NCBI RefSeq assembly: GCF_000519325.1
Contig: NZ_KI912613.1
Location: 2,905,432 to 2,969,431, forward strand
Source: Patulibacter minatonensis DSM 18081
GTDB taxonomy: Bacteria > Actinomycetota > Thermoleophilia > Solirubrobacterales > Solirubrobacteraceae
Length of the DNA: 64,000 bases
Direction: 5' to 3'
The stretch's first letter is position 1. Each line of letters begins with the position of its first letter. A program made the position numbers and the translations under genes. The notes under the pieces are model-generated. The model did no database searches and was not told the origin of the DNA. It worked only from the letters and a program-made list of their open reading frames with translations. This document shows positions 4,816 to 16,434 of this stretch, in pieces.

Positions 4816-6957
4816 ATGGAACGCGAAGTCCGTTCATCCGTCGCGGTGGTGGTCGTGGCGCTGCTCGCCGCCGCCGCCGGAGCTCCGCCGGCTCTCGCCG
4901 CCTCGGGATGGGCGCCCGTCGCCGCTCCGCTGACCCAGCGGTACGGCGGCATGACGACGGTGCTCGCCGACGGGCGGGTGCTGACCACGGGCGGGATCAA
5001 CGATCGTCAGGGCATCGCGCGGTCCGCCGAGATCTACGACCCCGCCTCGGGGCGCTGGTCCGTGGAGGAGTCCGACGACGCGAACGGTCGCGCGCCGGAG
5101 CGCTCGCGCATCCACGGCACCCTCACCACCCTGCGGGACGGGCGCGTGCTCCTGGTCGGGGGCTTCTCGAGCTGGGACGTCGATCCCATCGAGCGCACGG
5201 TCGAGGTCTTCGATCCGGCGACCGGCCGCTGGACGTACGCGGCCCCCCTGGCCCGTGCGCGTCAGGGGCACGTCGCCGCGCTGCTGCCGGACGGTCGGCT
5301 GCTCGTCGCCGGCGGGGTCGATACCCGGGGCGCCCCCGTGGCCGAGGCCGAGATCTTCGATCCCGCGACCGGGACCTGGTCCAGCGGCGGCACGATGGCC
5401 CAGGCCGGATACGGGAGCCAGTCGGTCGTCCTGGCGGACGGCCGCGTCCTGGTCGCCGGCGGATCGACGACGGCCGCGGGCCCGCGCGACCCCCTCGACC
5501 GGGCGGACATCTCGCGGACCGAGATCTTCGACCCGGCGACCACGACCTGGTCCTCGGCCTTCTCGCTGGGCCGCCCGCGGGCGCAGGCCGGTGCGGCCCT
5601 GCTCGGGAGCGGCGGCGTCCTCGTCGCCGGCGGCGTCGGTGACACCGGGACGCTGGGGACGGCGATGCGGTTCGACCCGGCGCCGGAGACGTCCTTCTGG
5701 ACGACCCGCCTCGACCCACCGGTGACCGGCGCCCTCGCGTCCCTCACGGCGCTCCGCGACGACCGGGTGCTGATGATCGCCGAGGGCCAGCGGACCACGC
5801 CGCTCTACGACGAGGGCCTCGACTCGTGGTCCTCGTCCTACGCCATGGCGAGCCGTCGGTCGCAGTCGCAGCACGCGCAGCTGCAGGACGGCCGCGTCCT
5901 CGCGTTCGGCGGGACCGAGACCACGACCGCCGAGCGCTTCACGCAGCCGACGACCCGCGCGGCCGACGACGCCGACCTCGGGGAGACCGCGGTCGGCCGC
6001 ACGGCCGAGCGCGACGTCGTGGTGCGCAACACCGGGACGGAGCCGCTCTTCACGATCGGGGTCTCGACGACGGGGGCGGGCGCCTCCGCGTTCACCGTCG
6101 TCGCCGACGGCTGCTCCCGGACCCCGGTGCCGGTCGGGGGCTCGTGCGTCGTCCGGGTCCGCTTCGCGCCCTCGGGTGTCGGCCCGCGCGAGGCCACCCT
6201 CGCGTTCGACGACAACGCCGAGTCGTCGCCGTCGTCGGCGTTGCGGGCGGTCGGCACGGCGCGGGTGGTCGACCCGACGCCGACGGACCCGACGCCGACC
6301 GCTCCGACGGGTCCCGCGGACCCGGGTCCCGCGGCGCCGACCGGCTCCGCGCCGCCGGTCGGCGGCGGGCCCGCCCCGGTGGCTCCGCGGCCGGTCCCGG
6401 TCCCGTGCTCGGTCCGCTCCGTCGTGCTGTTCGGCGTCGCGCCGAGCGCGACGACGTCGCGACCCCGTGTGCGGCTGTCCGGGGTCGCGTCGGGACTGCC
6501 GGCCGGGACGGTCGTCCGGATCCGTCGCGACGGCGCGCAGATCGGGAGCACGGCGGTCCGGGACGACGGCACCGTCTCCGCGACGGTGGCCGCGCCCGGC
6601 ACCCGGCGCGCTCGACTTGCCGCGCGGTACCGGCTCGTCCCGAGCGTCGGCAGGCGTTCCGCAGCGCTGAAGGCGACCCGCCTGGCGACGATCGGCGCGG
6701 CCGGCCCGGTCTCGGGCGGCGACGTGCGGGTGAACGGCCGGGTGGCGGGCGTCCGGCGTGCGACGCGGCTGCGGATCGAGCGGACCTCGGCGTGCGGGCC
6801 GGCGACGGTCGTCGTGGGCACGGCCACGACCGACGCCCGCGGCGGCTTCCGCACCCTGCTCGCGGCGCCGGCGGTGGGCGAGGGCGCCTGGATCTACCGG
6901 ATCCGGCAGGGCCGGCGGACGGTCACCCTGCCGATCGTCGTCGGCGCGCGGCGGTAG
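4816..6957 (+). CDS. Secreted Kelch-repeat protein with a choice-of-anchor domain
   Basis: The 713-residue product begins with a Sec signal peptide (hydrophobic VAVVVVALLAAAAG, cleavage near ALA-A). Residues about 35-380 hold at least six Kelch blades, each with a DGRVL(V/L)(A/V)GG strand and a (V/I)F/YDPATG.W turn, forming a beta-propeller. Next is an ASPM-SPD2-Hydin/choice-of-anchor-D type Ig domain (VVVRNTGTEPL ... CVVRVRFAPSGVG), then a Pro/Thr linker and a beta-rich domain of about 180 residues with no family I recognise. I do not see the full copper-ligand set of galactose oxidase and make no claim of oxidase activity. It is probably a surface binding or adhesion protein. Confidence 0.8.
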   Translation: MEREVRSSVAVVVVALLAAAAGAPPALAASGWAPVAAPLTQRYGGMTTVLADGRVLTTGGINDRQGIARSAEIYDPASGRWSVEESDDANGRAPERSRIHGTLTTLRDGRVLLVGGFSSWDVDPIERTVEVFDPATGRWTYAAPLARARQGHVAALLPDGRLLVAGGVDTRGAPVAEAEIFDPATGTWSSGGTMAQAGYGSQSVVLADGRVLVAGGSTTAAGPRDPLDRADISRTEIFDPATTTWSSAFSLGRPRAQAGAALLGSGGVLVAGGVGDTGTLGTAMRFDPAPETSFWTTRLDPPVTGALASLTALRDDRVLMIAEGQRTTPLYDEGLDSWSSSYAMASRRSQSQHAQLQDGRVLAFGGTETTTAERFTQPTTRAADDADLGETAVGRTAERDVVVRNTGTEPLFTIGVSTTGAGASAFTVVADGCSRTPVPVGGSCVVRVRFAPSGVGPREATLAFDDNAESSPSSALRAVGTARVVDPTPTDPTPTAPTGPADPGPAAPTGSAPPVGGGPAPVAPRPVPVPCSVRSVVLFGVAPSATTSRPRVRLSGVASGLPAGTVVRIRRDGAQIGSTAVRDDGTVSATVAAPGTRRARLAARYRLVPSVGRRSAALKATRLATIGAAGPVSGGDVRVNGRVAGVRRATRLRIERTSACGPATVVVGTATTDARGGFRTLLAAPAVGEGAWIYRIRQGRRTVTLPIVVGARR

Positions 6958-7065
6958 CGCGCGGACTCGCGGTGGGCACGGGGCTCGCCGCGAGCACCGG
7001 CGGCCCGGCGCCGATCGCTGCGACGGCTCGCGGGCGTGCGGCCGCAGTGCCCTCCGGACGGTGCC

Positions 7066-7210
7066 GATCCGGGAAGCGCAGGTTCCCACGGATTCCCGGA
7101 CGGACGGCCCGGGGAGGCCCGATCCGGGAATGCGCAGGTTCCGGTGGATTCCCGGACGGGCGCCCACGCGGGGGTGATCTGGGAATGCGCAGGTTCCGGT
7201 CGATTCCCGC
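7066..7210. repeat. Tandem array of three palindromic units, exact 55-bp period
   Basis: Units start at 7066, 7121 and 7176. Each runs from GATCCGGGAA through a conserved GCGCAGGTTCC core to GATTCCCG, so the ends form an inverted repeat of 10-12 bp around a loop of about 15-20 nt. Spacers are about 19-20 bp and differ in sequence. Unit 1 lacks the T in GGGAATGCG; unit 3 ends in CATCGG instead of GACGG. A related two-unit array with the same 55-bp period lies at 15061-15157. Confidence 0.85.
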
Positions 7211-7247
7211 ATCGGCCCCCGCGCAGCCCGTGTCCTCGCGGTCCCCG

Positions 7248-7253
7248 TAGGAT
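7248..7253 (+). promoter_or_regulatory. -10 box (TAGGAT) for lysC
   Basis: TAGGAT ends 11 bases before the lysC ATG, predicting a transcript with a leader of only about 3-5 nt. It lies 37 bp after the last 55-bp repeat unit. Confidence 0.5.
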
Positions 7254-7264
7254 CCGACGCGCGC

Positions 7265-8593
7265 ATGAGCCCCCTGATCGACACCGGAACCGGCAGCGAC
7301 ACCGTCGTCATGAAGTTCGGCGGCACGTCCGTCGCCGACGCGGAGCGCATCAAGCGCGCCGCGGCCCGGATCGTGAAGAAGCGCGAGGCCGGCCAGCGCG
7401 TCGTCGTCGTGCTGTCGGCCCGCGGCAAGGAGACCGACCGGCTGATCGCCGACGCGCTGGAGATCTCGGAGCGGCCCGCGCCGCGCGAGATGGACATGCT
7501 CCTGTCGACCGGCGAGCGCGTCTCGTGTGCGCTGGCGGCGATGGCGATCAACGACCTCGGGCACGAGGCGATCTCGCTGACGGGCTCGCAGGCGGGCATC
7601 GTCACCGACACGTCGCACACGAAGGCCCGGATCCTCGACGTCCGCGCCGACCGGATCCTCGAGGCGCTCGACCAGGACCGCATCGTGCTGGTCGCCGGCT
7701 TCCAGGGCGTGTCGACGGCGAAGGACGTCACGACGCTCGGCCGCGGCGGCTCGGACACGACCGCCGTCGCGCTGGCCGCCGCCGTCGGCGCCGACGTCTG
7801 CGAGATCTACACCGACGTGCCCGGCGTCTTCAGCGCCGACCCGCGCGTCGAGCCGCACGCGAAGAAGCTCGACGTCGTGTCCTTCGAGGAGATGCTCGAG
7901 ATGTCGAGCTCCGGCGCCGGGGTGCTCCAGCTGCGCTCCGTCGAGTACGCCCGCACCCACGGGGTCCGCATCCACTGCCGCTCGAGCTTCGAGGACGGCG
8001 AGGGCACGTGGGTGGTTTCCGAGGCCGAGGCCGCGACCGCCCTACAGCAGCAGAACGAGGAGAACACCGTGGAGAACCCGCTGATCACCGCCGTGACGCA
8101 CTCGACGGTCGAGGCGCGGATCACCCTGTCCGGCGTGCCGGACACCCCCGGCGCCGCCGGCCGCATCGCGACGGCGCTGGCCGAGGCCGGCGTGAACGTC
8201 GACATGATCATCCAGAACGAGCCGCCGGAGCCCGGCGCGCGCGCCGACATGAGCTTCACGGTCCCCCGCGAGGACCTGCTCGCCGCGCAGGACGCCCTGA
8301 AGCCGGTCATCACCGACCTCGGCGTCACGGCCGTGCGGACCGAGGCCGAGATGGGCAAGGTCTCGATCGTCGGCGCCGGCATGAAGACGCACCCCGGCGT
8401 CGCCGCCAAGGTCTTCACGGTCCTCGGCGAGAAGGGGATCAACATCGAGATGATCTCCACCTCGCCGATCAAGATCTCGTGCGTCGTCCCGGGCGACCAG
8501 GTCCCCGACGCGGTGCAGGCCCTGCACGGCGCGTTCGGCCTCTCGGGCGAGGACACGATCCGCCCCGAGCAGCCGTTCGGGCAGTTCTCCTAG
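7265..8593 (+). CDS. lysC: Aspartate kinase (alpha/beta type)
   Basis: Catalyses ATP-dependent phosphorylation of L-aspartate, the first step to lysine, threonine, methionine and diaminopimelate. The 442-residue protein has the kinase signature [16 protein letters not shown] (residues 15-30), the GFQGVS and [16 protein letters not shown] loops, then two ACT domains from about residue 270 ([36 protein letters not shown]) that usually bind inhibitory lysine and/or threonine. An internal GTG at 8069 probably starts a separate beta subunit. The gene ends convergently with a LysR gene, the two TAG stops sharing CTAG at 8590-8593. A palindromic repeat array lies just upstream. Confidence 0.96.
8069..8593 (+). 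CDS. Internal in-frame start: aspartate kinase beta (regulatory) subunit
   Basis: The GTG at 8069 (codon 269 of lysC) is preceded by AGGAG at 8058-8062 with 6-nt spacing, one of the few strong ribosome binding sites near it. The product (174 residues, starting [12 protein letters not shown]) would be just the two ACT domains. Actinobacterial aspartokinases such as the Corynebacterium enzyme are known to be made as alpha and beta subunits from overlapping frames with the beta start at this place, so this is a well-supported inference. Expression is not shown by sequence alone. Confidence 0.6.
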
Positions 8594-14970: not shown

Positions 14971-15060
14971 GTCACGGCGCGGGAGCGACGGACGGGGCGC
15001 GGACGGTCACCCGGGGGCGGCAGGACACGCACGGCCGCAGGACGTCGGCCGTCGCGGGGC

Positions 15061-15157
15061 CCGTCGGGGAATGCGCAGGATCCGCGTCGTTTCCCGGATC
15101 GGTCGTGGTGGGGGGCCGTCGGGGAATGCGCAGGATCTGCGTCGATTCCCGGATCGG
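15061..15157. repeat. Tandem pair of palindromic units, same family and period as 7066-7210
   Basis: Two nearly identical 42-bp units start at 15061 and 15116 (period 55 bp). Each has CCGTCGGGGAATGCGCAGGA, then TC(C/T)GCGTCG, then (A/T)TTCCCGGATCGG, giving inverted ends GGGAA...TTCCC. The 13-bp intervening sequence is unique. The GGGAATGCGCAGG core is shared exactly with units 2 and 3 of the array before lysC. Confidence 0.85.
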
Positions 15158-15330: not shown

Positions 15331-16434
15331 ATGAGCAGCGAGGGGTACCGCATCGCCGTCGTCGGCGCCACGGGGCAGGTCGGGGGCGTCCTCCTGGACG
15401 AGCTGGGCGTGCCGAACGACGGGACGCGGGTCGGCGCGGCGACGAAGGCGCCGAACGCCGGTGATCCGGTCGGCGCGGCGCTCCCCGTGCGCGAGATCGT
15501 CCCGTTCGCCTCGTCCCGCTCCGCCGGCACGCAGCTGCGCGGCATGACGGTCCAGCCGATCACCGACGAGACGATCCAGGGCTTCGACATCGCGGTCTTC
15601 TCCGCGGGCGGCAGCACCTCGAAGGAGTGGGCGCCGAAGTTCGCGGCCGCCGGCGCGGTCGTCGTCGACAACAGCTCGGCGTGGCGGATGCACGACGGGG
15701 TGCCGCTCGTCGTCTCCGAGGTCAACCCGGAGGCGCTGGACGACCACAAGGGCATCGTCGCCAACCCCAACTGCTCGACGATGCAGCTGATGGTCGCGCT
15801 GCGGCCGATCCAGCAGGCCGCCGGGATCGAGCGGCTCGTCGTCTCGACCTACCAGGCGGTCTCCGGCACCGGCAAGGCCGCGGTCGACGAGCTGTTCGAG
15901 GAGTCCCGCGCGATCCTCGACGGGACCGACGTCCCCGCGCCGCGGAGCTACGCCCACCAGATCGCGTTCAACGCGCTGCCGCACGCGGGGAACTTCGTCG
16001 ACGACCACACCGACGAGGAGCTGAAGCTCATCAACGAGACGCGGAAGATCCTCGGCGACGACACGATCCGCATCTCCGCCACCTGCGTCCGCGTCCCCGT
16101 CATCAATGGGCACTCCGAGACCTGCAACGTCGAGACCCGCGAGGACCTGTCGCCCGAGCGCGCCCGCGAGATCCTGGAGGCCGCCCCCGGCCTCGAGGTC
16201 CGCGACGACCCGGCGGCGAACGTCTACCCGATGGCCGTCGACGCCGACGGGCGCAGCGACGTCCTCGTCGGCCGCATCCGCCGCGACCGCGGCAACGAGA
16301 AGGCGCTCGACCTCTTCGTCGTCGGCGACAACCTCCGCAAGGGTGCCGCGACGAACACGATCCAGCTGGCCGTCGTGCTGCACGAGCGCGGCCTGGTCCG
16401 CCCGACCCCGGCCGCCGAGGTCCCGGCGCTGTAG
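15331..16434 (+). CDS. asd: Aspartate-semialdehyde dehydrogenase
   Basis: Reduces aspartyl phosphate to aspartate semialdehyde with NADPH, the step after aspartate kinase. The 367-residue product has the nucleotide-binding VVGATGQVGG (residues 10-19), PFASSRSAG, VVDNSSAWRM, and the catalytic Cys148 in NPNCST; the acid/base His is probably in the NGHSE segment. Compared with common Asd proteins there is an insertion of about 25 residues (NDGTRVGAATKAPNAGDPVG) between the first helix and the second strand, so the protein is longer than usual (about 340). def follows 26 bp downstream. Confidence 0.95.
   Translation: MSSEGYRIAVVGATGQVGGVLLDELGVPNDGTRVGAATKAPNAGDPVGAALPVREIVPFASSRSAGTQLRGMTVQPITDETIQGFDIAVFSAGGSTSKEWAPKFAAAGAVVVDNSSAWRMHDGVPLVVSEVNPEALDDHKGIVANPNCSTMQLMVALRPIQQAAGIERLVVSTYQAVSGTGKAAVDELFEESRAILDGTDVPAPRSYAHQIAFNALPHAGNFVDDHTDEELKLINETRKILGDDTIRISATCVRVPVINGHSETCNVETREDLSPERAREILEAAPGLEVRDDPAANVYPMAVDADGRSDVLVGRIRRDRGNEKALDLFVVGDNLRKGAATNTIQLAVVLHERGLVRPTPAAEVPAL

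Follow-up and report, generated by a model that had tools for sequence, protein, structure and literature searches.

The three evenly spaced palindromes in front of lysC in Patulibacter minatonensis DSM 18081 raise the question of whether they form a switch dedicated to this gene or are copies of a repeat that occurs elsewhere as well. The first-pass annotation of the window, a stretch of 64,000 nucleotides (genome positions 2905432-2969431; positions of less than seven digits with lysC and asd refer to the window, all others to the genome unless stated otherwise), had described palindromic copies starting at 7066, 7121 and 7176 with an exact 55-bp period upstream of lysC, all of which is plainly seen in the sequence, and had offered two readings: either the copies are binding sites in phase, or a small palindromic element was duplicated.

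Materials and Methods

The genome searched comprised 5.52 Mb in a single contig. A covariance model, R1, was built on 12 hand-collected, aligned copies of the repeat and covers 44 positions at 1.249 bits per position. Genes were called by a codon-usage script and named by Pfam and NCBIfam; the name lysC was adopted as given in the first-pass annotation.

Results

In the lysC array the motif GATC(C/T)GGGAA starts at 7066, 7121 and 7176, so that the period of 55 bp is kept exactly, twice. The starts read GATCCGGGAA at 7066 and 7121 and GATCTGGGAA at 7176, and each is followed by GCGCAGGTTCC and then GATTCCC. A repeat search returned one family with three copies, which is this array, and GGGAATGCGCAGGTTCCNNNNGATTCCC, allowing up to three mismatches, matched in the window only the three units and gave no match in 100 dinucleotide shuffles. 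Measured from GGGAA to TTCCC, the units are 27, 28 and 28 nt long and the spacers 28 and 27 nt, the sums staying at 55. R1 matched all three on the forward strand: unit 1 (7061-7103; genome 2912492-2912534) with 51.3 bits and a one-base deletion in the left arm, where a T is missing (GGGAA-GCGC); unit 2 (7116-7159), the best-folding copy of the array (DNA fold z -4.96), with 66.7 bits; and unit 3 (7171-7214), whose flanking arm is decayed and whose hairpin lies at shuffle level (z -0.08), with 60.6 bits.

The array is preceded by a gene for a Kelch-repeat protein (4951-6957, forward strand; Pfam Kelch) and followed, 50 bp 3' of unit 3, by lysC itself (7265-8593, forward strand), an open reading frame for an aspartate kinase of 442 aa with orthologues in seven congeners that are 86-96% identical. 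Congener sequences upstream of lysC point to a probable -10 element, TAGGAT (7248-7253, forward strand), which reads TAGGAT in five of the seven and TAGAGT in the other two, and the ATG follows 11 bases after it; the lysC transcript is thus probably leaderless. Similar elements about 10 bp before the ATG are kept across congeners in front of both lysC (TAGGAT, start 7265) and asd (TACCCT, start 15331), which suggests leaderless transcripts for both genes. With about 33 bp between the end of unit 3 and the probable -10 element, the array may influence lysC expression; placed immediately 5' of the core promoter, it may modulate that promoter as a by-product. The array itself was found upstream of lysC in none of the seven congeners, and in G002, G004, G005 and G006 no Kelch gene stands before lysC, which is directly preceded by a hydrolase gene instead. 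The lysC array is probably not an ancestral lysC operator, and lysC needs no special operator unless bench data reveal one.

Searching the entire genome with R1 yielded 15 units at ten loci, comprising four head-to-tail arrays and six single units (316918, 1993382, 2447495, 2874981, 3501473 and 3887744); as 12 of the 15 units had been used to build the model, their scores are circular, whereas 2447495, 2874981 and 3887744 stood outside it. Besides the lysC array with three units at a period of 55 bp, there are three arrays of two units. One of them lies in the window upstream of asd (15057-15156), its units (15057-15101 with 63.4 bits and 15112-15156 with 64.1 bits, forward strand, both of a 29-nt subtype) being 55 bp apart; the others lie at 2.902 Mb (2902406-2902503, period 54 bp) and at 2.889 Mb (2889729-2889828, period 55 bp). 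The first-pass annotation had held that hundreds of randomly spaced copies, or lack of the 55-bp period at other loci, would speak against its reading; instead, 15 units were found genome-wide and a period of 54-55 bp recurs at three other loci. All four arrays are contained within 31 kb, and five of the ten loci within 46 kb, a degree of clustering reached in 1 of 200,000 random draws. An association with the origin or terminus was rejected, as the cluster at 2.9 Mb is neither adjacent nor opposite to dnaA, which is placed at 1.25 Mb. Beside the arrays (2891083-2901116) four large genes of the amidase family (PF01425) share one strand and are interspersed with two genes of 219 codons, a group which is itself a locally repeated gene cluster.

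The unit is an imperfect palindrome of about 44 bp (consensus about CCCGTCGGGGAATGCGCAGGATCCGGTCGATTCCCCGATCGG) with the core GGGAAT-GCGCAGG...GTCG-ATTCCC. Conservation comprises the two hexamers and some 10 bp beyond each of them; GGGAAT and ATTCCC are nearly invariant among units, and the remaining positions differ by about 20-35%. The gap between the hexamers is 16 nt in the lysC and 2.902-Mb arrays and 17 nt in the asd and 2.889-Mb arrays. Unit and spacer lengths compensate each other (27+28, 28+27, 28+26, 29+26 and 29+26), giving periods of 55, 55, 54, 55 and 55 bp, and together with the near-invariant hexamers this near-constant period hints at selection. The spacers were thought to be unrelated, which does not hold throughout: apart from the outward conservation, the spacer of the 2.889-Mb array is repeated almost exactly (z 9.5), and the lysC and 2.902-Mb spacers are alike (z about 3.5), the two arrays aligning over 100 bp with the spacer included. 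Nor do the units lie on the same face of the DNA, as had been supposed, because 55 bp at 10.5 bp per turn correspond to 5.24 turns and rotate successive units by about 86 degrees. The strength of the DNA hairpin ranges from z -7.8 (copy 316918) to shuffle level, and since four of ten copies fold no better than shuffles, the hairpin, unlike the two hexamers, is not uniformly maintained. R1 holds 1.249 bits at 44 positions, i.e., 55 bits, whereas about 20 bits would mark 15 sites in 5.5 Mb, which points to units copied by descent and not to convergent binding sites.

With regard to position, nine of the ten loci are outside predicted coding sequence. The tenth, the 2.902-Mb array, is located inside an open reading frame of 607 codons on the minus strand just upstream of the window (genome 2901348-2903171; L038:15917-17740), whose codon-position signature runs on at both sides of the array. 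It is in frame, its period of 54 bp equalling 18 codons, and encodes a hydrophilic stretch at about residues 205-267 between hydrophobic segments; third-position GC is 0.84 in the array versus 0.95 in the rest of the gene (Fisher p 0.002). In the polytopic membrane protein of 607 aa the two units read GRSGNAQLSVDSPTAPAT and GRSGNAQDPVDSRTGSAT. This protein gave no significant Pfam match, homologues were found neither in plasmids nor in PDB nor in the congener DNA sampled, and its single-sequence fold was poor (pLDDT 46) and was given no weight. Because the family is scattered and one pair lies inside a protein gene, REP-like repeat DNA is favoured over a dedicated lysC switch.

The genes beside the loci are lysC, asd, rod genes of the flgF/flgG type, MOSC/MrpA, an M48 peptidase, two methyltransferases, PDH E1-alpha with ArsR, and LysR with HlyD, which share no common pathway. 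For all nine noncoding loci the nearest predicted start follows at a distance of 45-174 bp, as it does for 31% of the placeable intergenic positions; as this interval was set post hoc and on predicted starts, the placement is suggestive only. At least four loci other than lysC lie between divergent genes; the loci showed no significant preference for divergent, co-directional or convergent gaps (P = 0.39 for the absence of convergent sites).

Among 80 relatives, the seven congeners included, R1 found no match at E 0.01, a search which copies as diverged as that of congener G002 would escape. In G002 a diverged palindrome, GGGAATCGCATCGATCCGGTGGATTTCCC, is present 51 bp before the ATG of asd (L148, about 2643-2690) on the strand opposite to asd (20.4 bits, E 0.016 in 67 kb). 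Its position differs from that of the asd array, which ends 174 bp 5' of asd (aspartate-semialdehyde dehydrogenase, 15331-16434, forward strand; NCBIfam asd_B and PRK14874 above cut-off); it is the sole match in 490 kb of G002 sampled, where control patterns also give one to seven, and its homology to the family is possible. The asd array was absent in the other congeners compared. A short perfect palindrome, CGGGGAATGGCGATTCCCCG, was observed in congener G001 (L218:16793-16825) and is possibly a simpler relative. When 84,980 species genomes were scanned for the exact pattern, ten scattered, chance-like matches appeared in unrelated phyla; phages and plasmids gave weak partial matches only, viral contigs none, and the open-access papers searched describe no repeat family of this sort for the bacterial group. 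Judged by the genomes compared, the family is species-specific or lineage-specific.

Discussion

The array in front of lysC probably belongs to a dispersed palindromic repeat which is specific to its lineage, low in copy number, REP/RPE-like, noncoding and non-autonomous, and which was locally multiplied in tandem. The DNA itself would have been copied to new places, a unit of about 55 bp (the repeat and its short flanks) would have been multiplied by local tandem duplication, and arrays would have spread within one neighbourhood of 31 kb. Copies which broke genes or core promoters would then have been purged, so that the remaining ones are found close in front of promoters or in a protein loop that tolerates them. 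Of the two readings originally proposed, the duplicated small palindromic element is the one supported, by 15 units at ten loci, an in-frame array, mixed neighbours and seven congeners without the lysC array, and phased sites stay a conjecture. The information content of the unit, the clustering of loci, the almost exactly repeated 2.889-Mb spacer and a flgF-flgG gap that exceeds that of three congeners by about 115-130 bp speak for the repeat as well, and evenly spaced tandem REP arrays (PMC3116915) and in-frame REPs (PMC3733652) have been described. A few points are at odds with a repeat: a match to Y1_Tnp (RAYT) is missing from the genome and no clean target duplication could be defined, 15 copies are very few for a REP, the noncoding loci are upstream of starts unlike REPs near 3' ends, hairpin potential is at shuffle level in four of ten copies, and the near-invariant hexamers and the compensated period hint at selection. 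Spacing and promoter-side location also make a regulatory role conceivable.

Such a role was considered in the form of a phased operator, in which each unit would be a putative site of two half-sites (TCnGGGAAT...ATTCCCnGA) for a dimeric or tetrameric protein and the lysC and asd arrays would co-regulate the aspartate pathway, cooperatively at 55-bp steps. It would account for arrays preceding both lysC and asd, for unit 3 ending about 33 bp before the kept lysC -10, for nine of nine noncoding loci upstream of a start, for periods of 55, 55, 55, 55 and 54 bp held by compensating lengths, and for the G002 palindrome before asd as the sole match in its sample. However, related neighbour genes and conservation in relatives, by which an operator of a transcription factor was tested for, were not seen: the other loci adjoin flgG, MOSC/Mrp, an M48 protease, methyltransferases and PDH E1/ArsR, one array is within coding sequence, the lysC site is empty in seven of seven congeners and the asd array is missing in the others. 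Moreover, 55 bp do not make up whole helical turns of 10.5 bp, and the information content of the unit is far above that of an operator, which leaves this explanation rather unlikely. It is likewise doubtful, with a slim chance at most, that the repeat was recruited in one lineage as a multi-site operator of fixed spacing just in front of the promoters of lysC and asd, where selection would keep 54-55 bp and the spacers would drift.

The units might further represent the ends or core of a non-autonomous transposon of about 100-130 bp (a MITE or insertion-sequence remnant) moved by an ordinary transposase in trans. The longer gap between flgF and flgG (by about 115-130 bp relative to three congeners), where additional hairpins adjoin the copy, would fit this, as would the MOSC-MrpA gap, which is longer than in G007. 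Yet the latter varies among congeners too, conservation ends some 10 bp beyond the palindrome, so that a common element of 100-130 bp is lacking, and neither shared terminal repeats nor a clean target duplication were found, which renders this origin improbable. An RNA element, attenuator or terminator in the lysC leader is very improbable. The 166-nt array does fold as RNA somewhat better than shuffles (z -2.45), but the kept -10 with the ATG 11 bases later would put the transcription start 3' of the array, no Rfam family scored above threshold in the lysC upstream region, and the genes flanking at least four of the other loci are divergent. On anatomy, terminator and leader attenuator were rejected. 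A CRISPR array was rejected as well, with at most three diverged units per array and partly homologous spacers.

The preferred reading, a repeat, has to be compared with known repeat families. Mycobacterial interspersed repetitive units (MIRUs) resemble it as repeats of tens of base pairs that form short head-to-tail arrays, scattered between the genes of an actinobacterium; they are not known to be palindromic in build and occupy more loci than the repeat described here. Like REPs and REPINs of Pseudomonas and E. coli, which are associated with RAYT transposases, the present repeat is a short, dispersed, mostly extragenic palindrome (nine of ten loci noncoding), and evenly spaced tandem REP arrays occur in P. 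fluorescens SBW25 (PMC3116915). Unlike these it numbers 15 copies instead of hundreds, forms head-to-tail pairs instead of inverted doublets, lacks an unpaired terminal GTAG at the unit ends of the aligned copies, and lies on the promoter side of genes, whereas REPs cluster near 3' ends (PMC3733652). A search of the source genome for RAYT (Y1_Tnp, PF01797) gave no match, while the positive controls were detected.

In sequence motifs the repeat resembles CGTC-tagged REPs, among them the Neisseria dRS3 element, ATTCCC(N8)GGGAAT (PMC3898611): the hexamer pair is identical, GCGCAGG adjoins one of the arms, and a dedicated transposase is lacking. However, the polarity of dRS3 is reversed here (GGGAAT left, ATTCCC right), units are head-to-tail and not head-to-head, and the inter-hexamer gap is 16-17 nt, as against a loop of 4-5 nt in a stem of 8-9 bp, with a short CCA-like tail, in CGTC-REPs; the CGTC motif that tags the latter is seen at many unit ends here, though at some left ends only. 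In 504 kb of the source genome the pattern ATTCCC-N8-GGGAAT yielded no family, and with any gap of 4-14 three mutually dissimilar one-mismatch matches. Palindromes in frame within protein genes as well as between genes also characterise the Rickettsia palindromic elements (RPEs), and intragenic REPs are known besides (PMC3733652); here, a single locus is in frame and the sequence is unrelated as far as known. The repeat is hence REP-like and not a member of the REPs, from which it departs in RAYT, tag, loop, copy number and dimer orientation. As a real and apparently undescribed family, ordinary in kind, it provides an example of a low-copy, lineage-specific palindromic repeat that is locally clustered, partly tandem, once in frame and otherwise beside promoters, and can help to address how repeats of this type arise and if they turn into regulatory sites.
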